The notes beneath the pieces were generated by a model that had not been told where the DNA came from, made no database searches, and saw only the letters and a program-made list of their open reading frames with translations. A stretch of DNA of 64,000 nucleotides from Calothrix membranacea FACHB-236 (GTDB lineage Bacteria; Cyanobacteriota; Cyanobacteriia; Cyanobacteriales; Nostocaceae): NCBI RefSeq assembly GCF_014696315.1, contig NZ_JACJPX010000024.1:1-64000 (forward strand), written 5' to 3'. This document shows, in pieces, positions 39,967-44,634 of the stretch. The translations under genes were made by a program, and so were the position numbers. Position 1 is the first letter of the stretch; each line of letters opens with the position of its first letter.

Positions 39967-40914
39967 TTATTCTGCTGGATATTCGCTAAAAGTTCTGGCT
40001 GTTTTTTCTAAACAAAAATCCGTCGCCATTAAATCAATACCATCAATAATTTTACTTTGTTGGTTAATTCCCAAAGCGGTAAAACATTTGTCTCGATAAT
40101 CGGGATGATTTTGGAAAAATAATATCGCTTGTTTTAAAGGTTCAATCACAGGATAAGCTGCTTCTGCTTTATTAATAGCTGCTTGGGGAATTGGAGAATT
40201 TAGACGTTGAATAGCTAAATCAATTAAATCTCTGGATTCAAAAGAGGAATCATTCCATCTATCAGAATTGGCTAAAAGTTTTTCCGCAAAAATATCAATT
40301 TGATTGAGGCATGGTACAGGCGACCAACTGGGATATTCTGGTTCTCCCAATTCCATACGTCCTTCCATAATAATTTCAAATTTAATTAAAACTTCATCAG
40401 CTAGAATTGCAAATCTCACACCATATTGGTCAGCTTTGATTTCTCTGGGTAATCGGAAGTTATTTTGCGTATTAAAGATGGCATTGTATTGATGTTCAGA
40501 TATTGCTTTTCGTAATAACCTATAGCCTGTACCTGTGGAACAGAGAAAATCTATATCCTTGCTTAATCTATATTCGCCATTATTTAAACTAATGAGAGTA
40601 CCACCGCCAAAATATGCACCACATTCTAATAGAAAATTAGCATTTACTTGATTAAGTACATTAAAAATTTTTTGATGAAAGTCCCTGGCAAACATCTGCG
40701 TCCCTAACCATGAATCATAATATTTAGCTAAATTTTCCACAAATAATGCTTCTGTTTGGCTTAAATCACCTAAAATTCCTCGATAATGCCAGCCTCGCTC
40801 ATATATTTTGAGCATTTCTAAAAGAGTAAGATTTTGTAAATCCGCTCTTTGCCAGCATAATTTTTCTAAAAAAGGTAATTTGTCAGGAATTTTAATGTGA
40901 GGTGTAATTGTCAT
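39967..40914 (-). CDS. AbiEii-like nucleotidyltransferase
   Basis: The 315-residue protein has the polymerase-beta-type nucleotidyltransferase core of the AbiEii/AbiGii toxin group: YFGGGTLISLNNGEYRLSKD with the DxD aspartates at 120 and 122 (KDIDFLC). The C-terminal half has IDIFAEKLLANSDRW and ESRDLIDLAIQRL, as usual in these proteins. In AbiE systems this toxin transfers nucleotides to tRNA and is held by AbiEi; no AbiEi-like antitoxin gene lies next to it. It could be an orphan, or use a distant partner. Confidence 0.8.
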   Translation of the reverse strand: MTITPHIKIPDKLPFLEKLCWQRADLQNLTLLEMLKIYERGWHYRGILGDLSQTEALFVENLAKYYDSWLGTQMFARDFHQKIFNVLNQVNANFLLECGAYFGGGTLISLNNGEYRLSKDIDFLCSTGTGYRLLRKAISEHQYNAIFNTQNNFRLPREIKADQYGVRFAILADEVLIKFEIIMEGRMELGEPEYPSWSPVPCLNQIDIFAEKLLANSDRWNDSSFESRDLIDLAIQRLNSPIPQAAINKAEAAYPVIEPLKQAILFFQNHPDYRDKCFTALGINQQSKIIDGIDLMATDFCLEKTARTFSEYPAE

Positions 40915-40973: not shown

Positions 40974-41057
40974 AAATCAAATAATGTTTGCGACACATCA
41001 ATATATTCTAGAGGGCAAGGCAGTGCCTTGCCCCTACAATCTTTTGTATTCTTTTTT
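40974..41057. repeat. Dispersed repeat with perfect central palindrome
   Basis: This is the better-kept copy of the repeat at 30882-30965. Its centre (41013-41033) is GGGCAAGGCA-G-TGCCTTGCCC, the same palindrome as at 39917-39937. The repeat ends in a T-tract, so it could terminate transcription read from left to right. Confidence 0.75.
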
Positions 41058-41100
41058 TAAATCGGTACAACTTTTGCTTTAATGTTTTCTTGTTTTGTTA

Positions 41101-41333
41101 AAGCTGTAGCAGCTTTCGTTAAAGCTGTAGCAGCTTTTGCTTTAACATTTCGGTGTTTCGCGCAAGCTTTAGCAGCTTCTGCTTGAACATTTCGGTGTTT
41201 CGCGCAAGCTTTAGCAGCTTTTGCTTTAACGTTTTCGTATTCCGTTCAAGCTTTAGCAGCTTTTGCTTTAACGTTTCCGTATTCCGCGCAAGCTTTAGCA
41301 GCTTTTGCTTGAACGTTTCCGTATTCCGCGCAA
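41101..41333. repeat. 42-bp tandem repeat array (5.5 copies)
   Basis: The marker AAGCTTTAGCAGCTT (or AAGCTGTAGCAGCTT) occurs at 41122, 41164, 41206, 41248 and 41290, exactly 42 bp apart, with a half unit at 41101. The second half of each unit varies around TTAACGTTTCCGTATTCCGC. Since 42 is a multiple of three, frames stay open on both strands; the minus strand spells a 14-residue leucine-heptad-like unit (ARNTETLKQKLLKL), but that frame has a stop before it and no start codon. There are no unique spacers, so it is not a CRISPR array. Confidence 0.88.
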
Positions 41334-41412
41334 GTTGTAACGACTTCTATCTTGATATTTTGAACTTAGGGACTTTCAGAACAGAAATTACCCAATTTAC
41401 TCAGATTATATT

Positions 41413-43335
41413 TTATTGGATGAGGATGATTGCTTCTTTTACTTTGGTGGAAAGTGCAGCCTCTAATCCTTGCTCAACTTTGGCGATTAATTTGTCAAAA
41501 GCTTCTTGATTTGCTGTTAGTTGTTCTTGAAAAACTTGCTCTAACTCAGGCTGGATTCTCTCGCACATTTCGTCAATTTTTTTGTCATTTAAAAAACTAG
41601 AACGCAACCAACCAGGAACATCTACATTGGCTTTGATTGCATCTTGTACACCTTTACGATTGAATTCCATTCCAGCTGCGATCGCAGAAGCACCATATAC
41701 TAATGCGATGGGCCAGGTAAAATGTCCGGTGAGTACTAGGGTGATGATACTAGCAAGAGTACCGCCGCCAATGATAACGTTAACAATCAACCCTACAGTT
41801 TCGGCAAGAATTGCATCACCAATTCTTAATTCTGGGTTGACAAAAGCCGGGTCTATACTATCTTCAAATCTTAAACTACTTCTAGGAATTTGAAACTTAC
41901 GGCAGATGGGATCGGTTTCTGCGGCTAAGTCTGGTTGAATTTTTTTGTTAAACCAACTAATACATTGATTGTTAATTATTTGCTGGGCAATATTCCCTTG
42001 CAACCAATCCTCTGCGCGATTTTTCATCGAGGTTTCTAAATCGCTTAAGGTCTTGATTTTATTTGTCTGCCAGTCTTTAATTCCTGGGCGTACTGCATTT
42101 TCAATTAAACCATTAGCTAGGGGCTGAGTTAACAATTCAATTAATTCGGGAATATGTCGCGAAATTAATTCTTCTAGCTTGTTTGATTCTACCAGTTTGT
42201 TAACTTCTTGTTTAAAGGCAGTAGCCCGCAAATCCCATCGACCAACACGTGCTAAACCCAATGCTATACAACGTTCTGGTTCTGGGTCAGGTCGTAGTAA
42301 AGTTTCCGGTTCGGGAAAGATTTCTTGACAGATTTGGTGAGTAAATTTCATCCGCGATGCACCACCAGTCATCAGCAAAATTTTCGGTACAATTCCTTGT
42401 TTATCGAGTTGTTCTTTTGCTTCTTTGACTGCTTCACGAAATGCTTGCATCCAACTTTTTCCTTGCAATGCAGCTAAAGGTTGATGCAAGATTTCCTCCA
42501 TAATTAATTTATTAACTTGGGGGATAAAATAAATTTGTTCATTGATAGACTCAAAGCCACGGGCAAATGATTGAGAATCGCTATATAGCTGTTCGTTAGA
42601 AAAGTAATCTTCTTTAGTTTTGCGACAAGCAAGTTCACAACGTGCTTGGTGATGGGGATATTCTGTAAAGACTTTCTCTAGTAAGTTTCTTTGCTCGTGT
42701 TGGGCAAGAGTGCGTTCAAAAATAGCTTTGTCAATTAATGATGCACCTAAGATATTACTACCAAAATCTATAGGAATTTCCTGTAAACTTTTCACCAGGG
42801 TAAAATCTGTAGTTGAAGAACCAATATCAACAATTAATACTGAAGAAAGCAGTTTTTCATACTCTAATTTCCCGGCTTCTTTGGCTTGCATAAAAGCAGC
42901 CCGTGATTCGGGGATAACATTGAGGAAATCAATCCCGGCTGATTGTAGTAGCTTTTGATATTCTATGCGATCGCTCACTAACCACCCAGAAGGACAACCA
43001 ACATAAAAGTATGTAGTTTCGCCGCCTTCAATTTGTTTACTTTCTTTTAACAGGCGGTAGTAAGTTGCCACAAATGTGCTAATAGTTTCGCGATATTTAG
43101 CATCATTTTTGGGTTTTTCTTTGAAAGAAATTTCTAGTTGAGTAACCCCAGCTTGAATTAAAGCTTGTTCTCCAACAAGATAGCCCAATCGAGGATGCCA
43201 ACCAAGGGCTGTAATTTGATTTTTCTTATTATTAACCTCTAGCATTTGTGGAGGTTCAATACTCTCGACTATAGCTTTGGCTACAGCTGTTTCACCATGT
43301 CCTAAATCAAAACCGACTATTTCTAAAATTTCCAT
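41413..43335 (-). CDS. Hsp70/actin-fold ATPase with a C-terminal membrane segment
   Basis: Numbering from the in-frame ATG at 43353: phosphate-1 loop VGFDLGHGET (13-22), phosphate-2 VLIVDIGSSTTDF (172-184), adenosine motif ILLMTGGASRMK (325-336), so an intact actin/Hsp70 ATPase fold. The Hsp70 substrate domain is absent. Instead there is a helical region (about 375-515), a hydrophobic membrane segment (about 517-562) and a C-terminal helix-rich tail (580-646) somewhat like that of bacterial dynamin-like proteins. I prefer the ATG at 43335 (MEILEIVGFDLG), because the six codons before it lie in a CATTGGT-type repeat. It follows the GrpE-like-tail gene in the same direction, with a MITE-like insertion between. 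The role is unknown. Confidence 0.78.
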   Translation of the reverse strand: MEILEIVGFDLGHGETAVAKAIVESIEPPQMLEVNNKKNQITALGWHPRLGYLVGEQALIQAGVTQLEISFKEKPKNDAKYRETISTFVATYYRLLKESKQIEGGETTYFYVGCPSGWLVSDRIEYQKLLQSAGIDFLNVIPESRAAFMQAKEAGKLEYEKLLSSVLIVDIGSSTTDFTLVKSLQEIPIDFGSNILGASLIDKAIFERTLAQHEQRNLLEKVFTEYPHHQARCELACRKTKEDYFSNEQLYSDSQSFARGFESINEQIYFIPQVNKLIMEEILHQPLAALQGKSWMQAFREAVKEAKEQLDKQGIVPKILLMTGGASRMKFTHQICQEIFPEPETLLRPDPEPERCIALGLARVGRWDLRATAFKQEVNKLVESNKLEELISRHIPELIELLTQPLANGLIENAVRPGIKDWQTNKIKTLSDLETSMKNRAEDWLQGNIAQQIINNQCISWFNKKIQPDLAAETDPICRKFQIPRSSLRFEDSIDPAFVNPELRIGDAILAETVGLIVNVIIGGGTLASIITLVLTGHFTWPIALVYGASAIAAGMEFNRKGVQDAIKANVDVPGWLRSSFLNDKKIDEMCERIQPELEQVFQEQLTANQEAFDKLIAKVEQGLEAALSTKVKEAIILIQ

Positions 43336-43375
43336 ACTCTTGTTATTGGTCATTGGTCATTCGTCATTGGTCATT

Positions 43376-43541
43376 AGAGATAATTTATAAAGTAAACCTT
43401 AAATTGTAGGATGCGTTAGCGATAGCGTAACGCATCGATAAAGATGGTGCGTTACGGCTAAATTTCATTGTCTCTAAGTCCGAAATCCTTGCACAGCCGT
43501 AACACACCCTACTTAATATTTACTTTATAAATAGCCTCTTA
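43376..43541. mobile_element. MITE-like element with terminal inverted repeats, copy 1
   Basis: About 166 bp. Left end AGAGATAATTTATAAAGTAA, right end TTTACTTTATAAATAGCCTC: the arms match over ATTTATAAAGTAAA with a few differences outside. Inside are GGATGCGTT/AACGCATC palindromes and a GGTGCGTTACGGCTAAATTT block that ends near CCGTAACACACCCTACTTAA. A longer copy is at 63318-63520. No coding capacity, so it would need a transposase supplied in trans. It sits between two genes read in the same direction. Confidence 0.75.
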
Positions 43542-43722
43542 GTGTTTTGTCCTTTGTCAATGCAATGACTAATAATAAATAACAAAGGACAACCTAATGT
43601 GTTTTTACTTAGGGATTTCTATAAAATAATTCAATTTGCAACAGAGAATATTTTCTTTCTCCCCCCTGCTCCCTGCTCCCTGCTCCCCTGCCAAAAAAGC
43701 AATAATATATTTTGGAAGCCCC

Positions 43723-44634
43723 TTATGATTCTTTAACCTGGGAATACGCTGGTTCAATGACTCGACCGCGTCGCAGCAAGCGATCGCCTTTTAGCAGCGC
43801 TGGTGTTAAAGTAACGTAATCTTGGGTGTCAGGGTCGATACTCGGCTCAAAATCGAAATAATTGCGATCGCTTGTGGGGTCGTTGGCTTTGTAAATTTGC
43901 GCCCGAATTCCCTGTTCCATTAAAATTTGGGGGAGAAGTTGCGTCAGTGCGATCGCCATTTGGGGTTTATCCAAAAATGATGCACCCATCAGCTTTTGCA
44001 AAAAACCCAACAACTCTGGAAGTTCTTCTATACCAGTCTCACCCGTTGATTTGTTTCCTTCTTCAAATCTAGCAACTGCTAAGTCGATAGTGTTGAGTGC
44101 ATCAGCCAGGTTATCTAACAAAATTTTGCTATCAACCCGCAGAGAAGGTTGAGATAATTTCAAAGTTTCTGCTGATGTTGAATTCTCTTCTGCATTGCTT
44201 TTATCGAGTTGTAGCACTACTTCTAAACCCAAAAGCACAGCAGTTAATAAAATCCCCATCCAAGCACCAGGTGTAGTTTTACTTAAATAAAATAACCAAG
44301 CTACAATTCCTAAATAAAGCAGCACTTTGAGAAATTTGATAATTAATCTGTTGGCGGAAACTTTGCTAACTGGGTTAATAATTTGCTCTGCTTTTGTTGC
44401 AGTCATGGGTGCAAAATTTGCTGCTGCGAGATTGCTGATAGATTGTCTCAGCATATCTAGAAAAAATGCCGCCAAGCGCACCTGTGTTAAATTTAGTTCA
44501 CTAATGTAAACTCTTTCTAAATTATCTAATCGATTTTGAACTAGCTTAACTACAGCATCAATACTATTAGCATTTTCAATATCTATCTGTAGTTGGTTGC
44601 GTTCTTCACTAAAAAGCGTGGTAATTTTTTTCAT
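43723..44634 (-). CDS. Two-TM membrane protein with a GrpE-like tail, partner of the Hsp70-like gene
   Basis: The 303-residue protein has an N-terminal helical part (1-90), two hydrophobic helices (about 98-118 and 122-142; FLKVLLYLGIVAWLFYLS, WMGILLTAVLLGLEVVLQ), an acidic Ser/Thr-rich linker and a C-terminal domain (165-303). The end, LKGDRLLRRGRVIEPAYSQV (282-301), resembles the last strand of GrpE, the nucleotide exchange factor of DnaK. With the Hsp70-like gene next in the same direction, a membrane-bound ATPase/exchange-factor pair is a fair inference. I do not recognise the N-terminal part. The GrpE link rests on the tail alone. Confidence 0.62.
   Translation of the reverse strand: MKKITTLFSEERNQLQIDIENANSIDAVVKLVQNRLDNLERVYISELNLTQVRLAAFFLDMLRQSISNLAAANFAPMTATKAEQIINPVSKVSANRLIIKFLKVLLYLGIVAWLFYLSKTTPGAWMGILLTAVLLGLEVVLQLDKSNAEENSTSAETLKLSQPSLRVDSKILLDNLADALNTIDLAVARFEEGNKSTGETGIEELPELLGFLQKLMGASFLDKPQMAIALTQLLPQILMEQGIRAQIYKANDPTSDRNYFDFEPSIDPDTQDYVTLTPALLKGDRLLRRGRVIEPAYSQVKES

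Follow-up and report, generated by a model that had tools for sequence, protein, structure and literature searches.

The genome of the cyanobacterium Calothrix membranacea FACHB-236 (8.8 Mb) encodes, in two adjoining open reading frames (ORFs), an ATPase of the Hsp70 type and a partner protein with which it forms a near-obligate pair. The two ORFs, here called gene A (41413..43353, 646 aa) and gene B (43723..44634, 303 aa), lie on the minus strand of a 64,000-nucleotide stretch of contig NZ_JACJPX010000024.1, which was analysed as a whole and is referred to as the window; A is found downstream of B, after an intergenic gap of 369 bp. The product of A is an Hsp70-type ATPase with intact active-site motifs, predicted to be membrane-anchored and without a recognisable substrate-binding domain (SBD), and the product of B is a protein with two predicted transmembrane segments. 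We propose, with moderate confidence, that A and B form a membrane-bound, nucleotide-switched complex of the Hsp70 type, in which B acts on the nucleotide state of A.

Hsp70 proteins are usually viewed as chaperones defined by their peptide-binding domain. If our proposal is true, the A-B pair reveals a further output of the Hsp70 ATPase switch, and B becomes a candidate for a membrane-resident exchange factor. Gene deletions are routine in Nostoc and Anabaena and, because the pair occurs in these organisms, its knock-out and biochemical tests are within reach.

Co-occurrence and order of the two genes

Both genes are subject to purifying selection and are therefore real: in comparisons with six relatives, two of which have dS above 1, the ratio of non-synonymous to synonymous substitution (dN/dS, NG86) lies at 0.06-0.09 in A and at 0.12-0.20 in B. 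Protein A is 97% identical in Nostoc linckia FACHB-104 and Nostoc carneum NIES-2107.

A first-pass annotation of the window, made from its letters and ORF translations, had coupled the two genes, and the comparison of genomes bears this out. In particular, A was matched in 82 of the 145 genomes of the window's family, or in 81 after the removal of G042, whose 731-aa frame gave a weak Hsp70 match (25% identity, E 8.5e-4). B is present in 78 of these 81 genomes and in none of those without A; in the three that lack B (G002, G085 and G135) the A matches are only partial or broken. The two genes share one contig in 77 of the 78 genomes and stand on separate contigs in G109 (same-contig pairs, like genomes per class, were counted by hand from search listings, and several genome searches scored few candidates per genome). 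Among the 80 named loci, which are the best 80 of 190 relatives, B lies upstream of A on the same strand in 78, and where both are present the gap between them has a median of 14 bp, does not exceed 210 bp in 75 of 78 cases and reaches a maximum of 2776 bp. B is absent beside A in L157 and L114, where the A match starts 218 and 2388 bases, respectively, from the contig end.

When the neighbours of A were clustered over 100 loci, B was found in 97 and the next commonest family in 25, of which the 15 listed are mostly from Nostoc; this count omits L087-L095 and holds four stretches twice, which leaves 96 distinct loci, 93 of them with B. That is, A and B stayed together while other neighbours changed, and no gene except B is found in more than 25 of the 100 loci.

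The order B before A is also that of the canonical genes, as grpE precedes dnaK in this genome, and the same order is seen in L207, L211, L212 and L221, where a GrpE-like gene lies directly upstream of an Hsp70 gene. Extra GrpE-like proteins of 216-270 aa were observed in nine further loci (L206, L208, L210, L213, L214, L219, L220, L222 and L223), with no Hsp70 gene detected beside them in the 9-10 kb stretches inspected.

The Hsp70-type ATPase domain of A

The alignment of A used for profile comparison and for residue invariance holds 100 rows, namely the window and 99 loci, four rows repeating stretches; six loci without an A-B pair (L084, L090, L092, L093, L114 and L157) and four partial ones (L094, L095, L158 and L163) are omitted. 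In HHalign, it matched six DnaK-type proteins with a probability of 97.7% (E 1.7e-12) over 315 columns, confined to A residues 11-368 (42250..43323), and the fold of A is settled as Hsp70-type because of this comparison. Although the DnaK-type proteins were supplied at full length, the alignment ends at residue 368, that is, at the end of the ATPase domain.

Three Hsp70-type motifs are found within this nucleotide-binding domain (NBD): VGFDLGHGET (residues 13-22), VLIVDIGSSTTDF (172-184) and ILLMTGGASRMK (325-336). The first-pass annotation had delimited both minus-strand frames and read the motifs as intact, and on all these points it was correct. Residues D16, G18, K78, E149, D176, G178, T181, D183 and G330 are invariant in all 100 aligned rows and include the presumed counterparts of the Hsp70 catalytic residues, with K78 lying about two columns off the DnaK lysine in the HHalign alignment. 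A further conserved stretch, RCELACRKTKEDYF (residues 238-251, 42601..42642), aligns with the corresponding stretch of DnaK, in the region that is presumably subdomain IIB; its residues C239, E240, C243, R244, K247, E248, Y250 and F251 are invariant in 15 of 15 rows.

The relation to Hsp70 rather than to other actin-fold ATPases is seen in pairwise profile scores, which amount to 63-69 for A against three single DnaK proteins, versus 38 against one MreB and 20-38 against three ParM-like proteins of the same genome; in this set A is not closer to the actin-like proteins than to Hsp70. A search of the PDB with the A family profile returned BiP and DnaK at E 5e-5 to 2e-4. Structures of both proteins were predicted from 49-row alignments (the window and 48 of the 76 usable named loci, L158 and L163 having been dropped as cut-off genes). 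With Foldseek, the A model gave 269 matches in the PDB up to E 0.001, and the 50 listed were all of the Hsp70 family, with E from 1.1e-8. In the family databases, A reaches no Pfam or NCBIfam model cut-off, Pfam HSP70 does not appear in its list of eight Pfam families (up to E 1), and a cut-off search of its own genome with Pfam HSP70 gave six matches, A not among them. Two divergent relatives of A fall just below the Pfam HSP70 cut-off, with 19.9 and 19.2 bits versus 20.6.

In two loci, L272 (7437-10808) and L276 (5771-9007), single chains carry two tandem Hsp70-type ATPase domains, the second being the A protein, which suggests pairwise action of the ATPase domains.

The C-terminal region and membrane segment of A

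Beyond the ATPase domain, A departs from DnaK. The expectation that its SBD is replaced by helices and a membrane segment was upheld: neither the Hsp70 interdomain linker nor the SBD was recognised in HHalign against the full-length DnaK-type proteins, and the LLLD linker was not found in A. The predicted structure continues instead with long helices (residues 373-487), a low-confidence hydrophobic region (about 513-562) and two long helices (590-645). One strong hydrophobic peak is located at residues 523-541 (41731..41787, Kyte-Doolittle 2.18) and is followed by a weaker hydrophobic stretch. In the two phylogenetic classes described below, the number of hydrophobic peaks of A is one or two in 76 of 76 class I rows and two in nine of nine class II rows. 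The description of the tail as dynamin-like found no support, as no dynamin family is present among the eight Pfam families of A up to E 1, a search in which the tail fold was not compared alone.

Protein B and the GrpE question

As initially annotated, B is a two-transmembrane protein. It consists of N-terminal helices, two hydrophobic segments at residues 97-115 and 123-141 (44212..44346, peaks 2.19 and 2.06) and a C-terminal domain ending in LLRRGRVIEPAYSQVKES. Two or three hydrophobic peaks are found in 76 of 76 class I rows. At the same threshold, two peaks are reached in two of nine class II rows and no peak in five. The corresponding region there is rich in glycine and gives weak glycine-zipper matches; membrane insertion of B is consequently less sure in class II.

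The end of B had also been likened to that of GrpE. This resemblance was evaluated by comparing, in HHalign, a profile of 56 B sequences with one of 43 GrpE and GrpE-like sequences. The alignment extends over 99 columns to both C-termini (B residues 198-297, 43744..44043), with a score of 30.3 and P 0.0029, and this suggestive register outscores all controls. Sixty column permutations reached at best 19.3 and the reversed alignment 14.7; B against the 36 decoy families described below gave at best 20.4 (P 0.066). With 62 B sequences the score against GrpE was 28.7, the best of 100 permutations being 23.6, and the 47 close B rows by themselves scored 25.8. The C-terminal ends are paired in all listed ranges of these subset comparisons, whose scores of 17.7-30.3 are not significant by usual standards; a first run had aligned 18 columns.

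Several results weigh against a GrpE relationship, and hence against the mechanism built on it. The HHalign probability for B and GrpE is 10.7%. The decoys, which scored at best 22.0 (P 0.012, at most 46 columns) against GrpE, are families of neighbouring genes not selected for helical content, and the P of B is just four-fold better than that of the best of them. The 15 divergent B rows alone score 19.8, under the best decoy. Pfam GrpE was matched neither by the B of the window (up to E 1) nor by those of 20 relatives (up to E 10, a limit at which HMMER filters still remove most weak matches), and none of the matches listed by a PF01025 search of 29 genomes lies at the B locus. The AlphaFold model of B has a mean predicted local distance difference test (pLDDT) value of 58.6, with residues 255-303 below 50, and gave chance-level Foldseek matches (best E 0.45). 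Thus, the in-register alignment of the end of B stands above its controls but the probability, the Pfam searches and the model confidence do not sustain it; likewise, structure prediction produced an Hsp70-like A but no confident model of the C-terminus of B. A profile search of the PDB with B returned nothing credible, and the Pfam families listed for the 21 B proteins include no J-domain, the nearest being a chance-level HSCB_C match (0.021, L083). Taken together, the C-terminal 100 or so residues of B may tentatively be regarded as a GrpE-like exchange-factor domain, as a lead rather than as demonstrated homology.

Distribution and phylogeny

In samples of the phylum, A was matched in 11 of 292 genomes (two of them weak Hsp70-like matches) and B in 16 of 386 (two at E 8e-4), and the credible matches of both are confined to one order. 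Within that order, the A profile is matched at E 1e-12 in 52 of 291 genomes. The named hosts of A are mostly filamentous, along with single metagenome-assembled genomes labelled Aphanothece and Chroococcidiopsidaceae, and filamentous cyanobacteria with large genomes, including Nostoc and Anabaena species, commonly carry the pair.

A tree of 40 A rows and two DnaK rows separates two sets. Class I comprises the window and both oscillatorian and nostocalean rows, of which the 13 nostocalean ones form one group (99/100); the second set is split from it at 100/97 and contains class II, a compact group from other genera of the window's family, the remainder being long branches of unsure placing. In the family sample, class I and the other forms have no genus in common (17 and 15 of 56 genera), with a chance of 0.0015 if genera are assumed to be independent, which they are not. 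This pattern fits forms that replace each other for one function, and descent alone could generate it. A class I A-B pair was observed on a plasmid (L100 and L086, Calothrix brevissima NIES-22 plasmid2), with the B frame broken near its end; descent of the pair is therefore not purely vertical.

Neighbouring genes and the HerA-linked branch

Next to A, the window contains an AbiEii-type nucleotidyltransferase gene (39967-40914), of whose product residues 6-73 match the PADLOC AbiEi model (1.1e-24), so that it is possibly a fused AbiEi-AbiEii protein. Between this gene and A lie about five copies of a 42-bp repeat (41057-41334). On the basis of these neighbours, the locus had been suggested to be an accessory one, possibly for defence. 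AbiEii is present in just 2 of 21 compared stretches; the 17-base core of the repeat has three matches in the genome, all inside the window, and related patterns are found in none of eight relatives, so that the array was rejected as a part of the system. Since neither AbiEii nor the repeats are conserved and no third gene is widely shared, a defence role, or a defence island, is unsupported at the window locus. PADLOC models gave partial, chance-level matches to A (0.029, PDC-M09A) and to B (0.0063, Cmr5).

A different arrangement is found in L074 (5676-14171), L075 (2746-9702), L271 (3472-9936), L275 (1732-7814) and L276 (794-10012), where B and A are followed by a HerA/FtsK-like ATPase of 902-926 aa. 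A protein of 105-113 aa and a zincin-like protein each occur in four of these five loci, which come from four families, and an HEVGH motif was read in two of the zincin-like proteins. A sixth locus, L297 (7076-12934), keeps the ATPase, the small protein and the zincin-like gene, the last in two pieces, and A is replaced there by a different Hsp70-like protein of 295 aa; across all six loci the ATPase measures 889-926 aa. Of 281 genomes sampled in the order, 4 carry full-length relatives of the HerA-like ATPase, counting the query's own. This separate branch is possibly an undescribed conflict system.

Proposed mechanism and alternatives

In the complex that we propose, A would consist of a cytoplasmic NBD coupled to a C-terminal region that is helical, inserts into the membrane and takes the place of a peptide-gripping domain. 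ATP binding and hydrolysis, which the intact motifs lead us to expect, would switch the conformation or the assembly of this helical membrane region. B, for its part, would retain A at the membrane and influence its nucleotide state, most likely as an exchange factor through its GrpE-like C-terminal domain, a component that, taken by itself, is again tentative. The most likely cellular job, at which anatomy and distribution allow a weak guess, would be to maintain or remodel membranes, or the proteins in them, when filamentous cyanobacteria are under stress. A bolder version, which we hold to be unlikely, would see in A and B a mechanochemical membrane machine and thereby a third mode of use for the Hsp70 engine: the Hsp70-type ATPase would be integral to the membrane and served by an exchange factor of its own that resides there, and its nucleotide cycle would drive membrane-inserted helices and not client gripping. 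Such a machine would be a functional counterpart of dynamin-like proteins, and in the divergent branch a HerA-type motor and a zincin-like protein would have been added to it to make up a multi-gene conflict system.

Against the proposed complex it must be set that co-occurrence of A and B indicates a functional link, not contact. The predicted structure of A is of limited quality (pLDDT 70.8, predicted template-modelling score 0.52), with residues 17-61 below 50 and parts of the first lobe poorly modelled, and the top Foldseek match has template-modelling scores of 0.34 and 0.53. In addition, MreB follows close behind Hsp70 in the PDB search with the A family profile (E 2.4e-4), and in three divergent A proteins Pfam puts MreB_Mbl (2e-5 to 6e-4) ahead of HSP70.

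These last matches, together with a weak ParM-domain match (0.012) in the A of the window, are what could be expected if A were instead a membrane filament-forming, actin-like ATPase, as are FcmB/CorM, MreB and FtsA, with B as its tether and polymerisation, not chaperone cycling, as the output. The tandem ATPase domains of L272 and L276 would fit a protein working as a dimer or polymer, and filamentous cyanobacteria do possess a second shape-controlling actin system, FcmBC (PMC12645912). We nevertheless consider an actin-like A improbable, as the scores of A with DnaK lie well above those with MreB or the three ParM-like proteins. Nor is A likely to be equated with the known system: FcmB is of the ParM type, is reported in all heterocyst formers of 126 species and is encoded before its partner (PMC12645912), whereas A is missing from 64 of the 145 family genomes and follows its partner. 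The identity of A with FcmB was accordingly rejected, A being Hsp70-type, patchy and second in its unit, with ParM-like genes present elsewhere in the genome.

Less probable still is that A and B are the membrane module of an anti-phage or conflict system, sensing or triggering while other parts act as effectors. The HerA-linked branch, scattered over four families, would agree with such a role, as would L297, which keeps the three HerA-linked genes with a different Hsp70-like domain, and GAP1-N2 systems are known to combine Hsp70, GrpE and a second Hsp70 domain without the peptide-binding part (PMC7159879). In the window's own branch, by contrast, no third gene is widely shared, the 13 nostocalean rows form one group in the tree, PADLOC matches are at chance level and AbiEii is rarely adjacent.

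Finally, that A is a true chaperone whose helical region acts on membrane-protein clients, B serving as a tether or as a co-factor other than an exchange factor, is very unlikely, because, for all its Hsp70-type ATPase with intact motifs and the precedent of DnaK3, a known membrane-binding cyanobacterial Hsp70 (PMC7281324), A has no recognisable SBD or LLLD linker and no J-domain is listed for the B proteins.

Comparison with known systems

The complex that we propose can be set beside several described systems. An SBD-less, membrane-anchored Hsp70 with an obligate two-transmembrane partner was not recognised among the titles and abstract beginnings surveyed, a survey that left subscription journals mostly uncovered.

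Conflict loci with GAP1-N2 contain Hsp70-GrpE pairs, in some of which an Hsp70 domain lacks the peptide-binding domain (PMC7159879). These pairs adjoin genes for GAP1-N2 GTPases, mainly in actinobacteria and firmicutes, whereas A-B has no widely shared third gene; moreover, the available portion of that report makes no mention of membrane anchoring for them, in contrast to the predicted membrane segments of A and B.

CnuD of the CoCoNuT systems is an Hsp70-like protein with NBD and SBD and with degenerate Walker A-like motifs, associated with McrBC homologues (PMC11090510). A shares with it an Hsp70-like ATPase joined to a helical region, and CoCoNuT type III-C is mainly cyanobacterial. A differs in the absence of a recognisable SBD, in its invariant motifs and in the absence of a widely shared third gene. 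Membership of A-B in CoCoNuT was judged unlikely from these published features (PMC11090510), a judgement in which McrB and McrC models were not searched.

In Nostoc punctiforme, FcmBC is a shape system derived from ParM, FcmB being related to ParM and AlfA (PMC12645912). Like A-B, it is a two-gene unit of an ATPase and a partner, membrane associated and found in filamentous cyanobacteria. FcmB is reported from all heterocyst formers and its gene opens the operon; A, in contrast, is of the Hsp70 type, patchy in distribution and second.

DnaK3, a membrane-binding chaperone of the Hsp70 family in cyanobacteria (PMC7281324), resembles A in that the latter is Hsp70-type and, by prediction, membrane-linked. 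A differs from DnaK3 in having no recognisable SBD and in possessing a membrane segment and a partner of its own.

A further reference is the DnaK-GrpE pair itself. As in that pair, A has an Hsp70 ATPase domain with intact motifs, and its partner is encoded directly upstream in the same direction. The differences from DnaK-GrpE are that A has no recognisable SBD, that B has no recognised GrpE domain and that both A and B carry predicted membrane segments.

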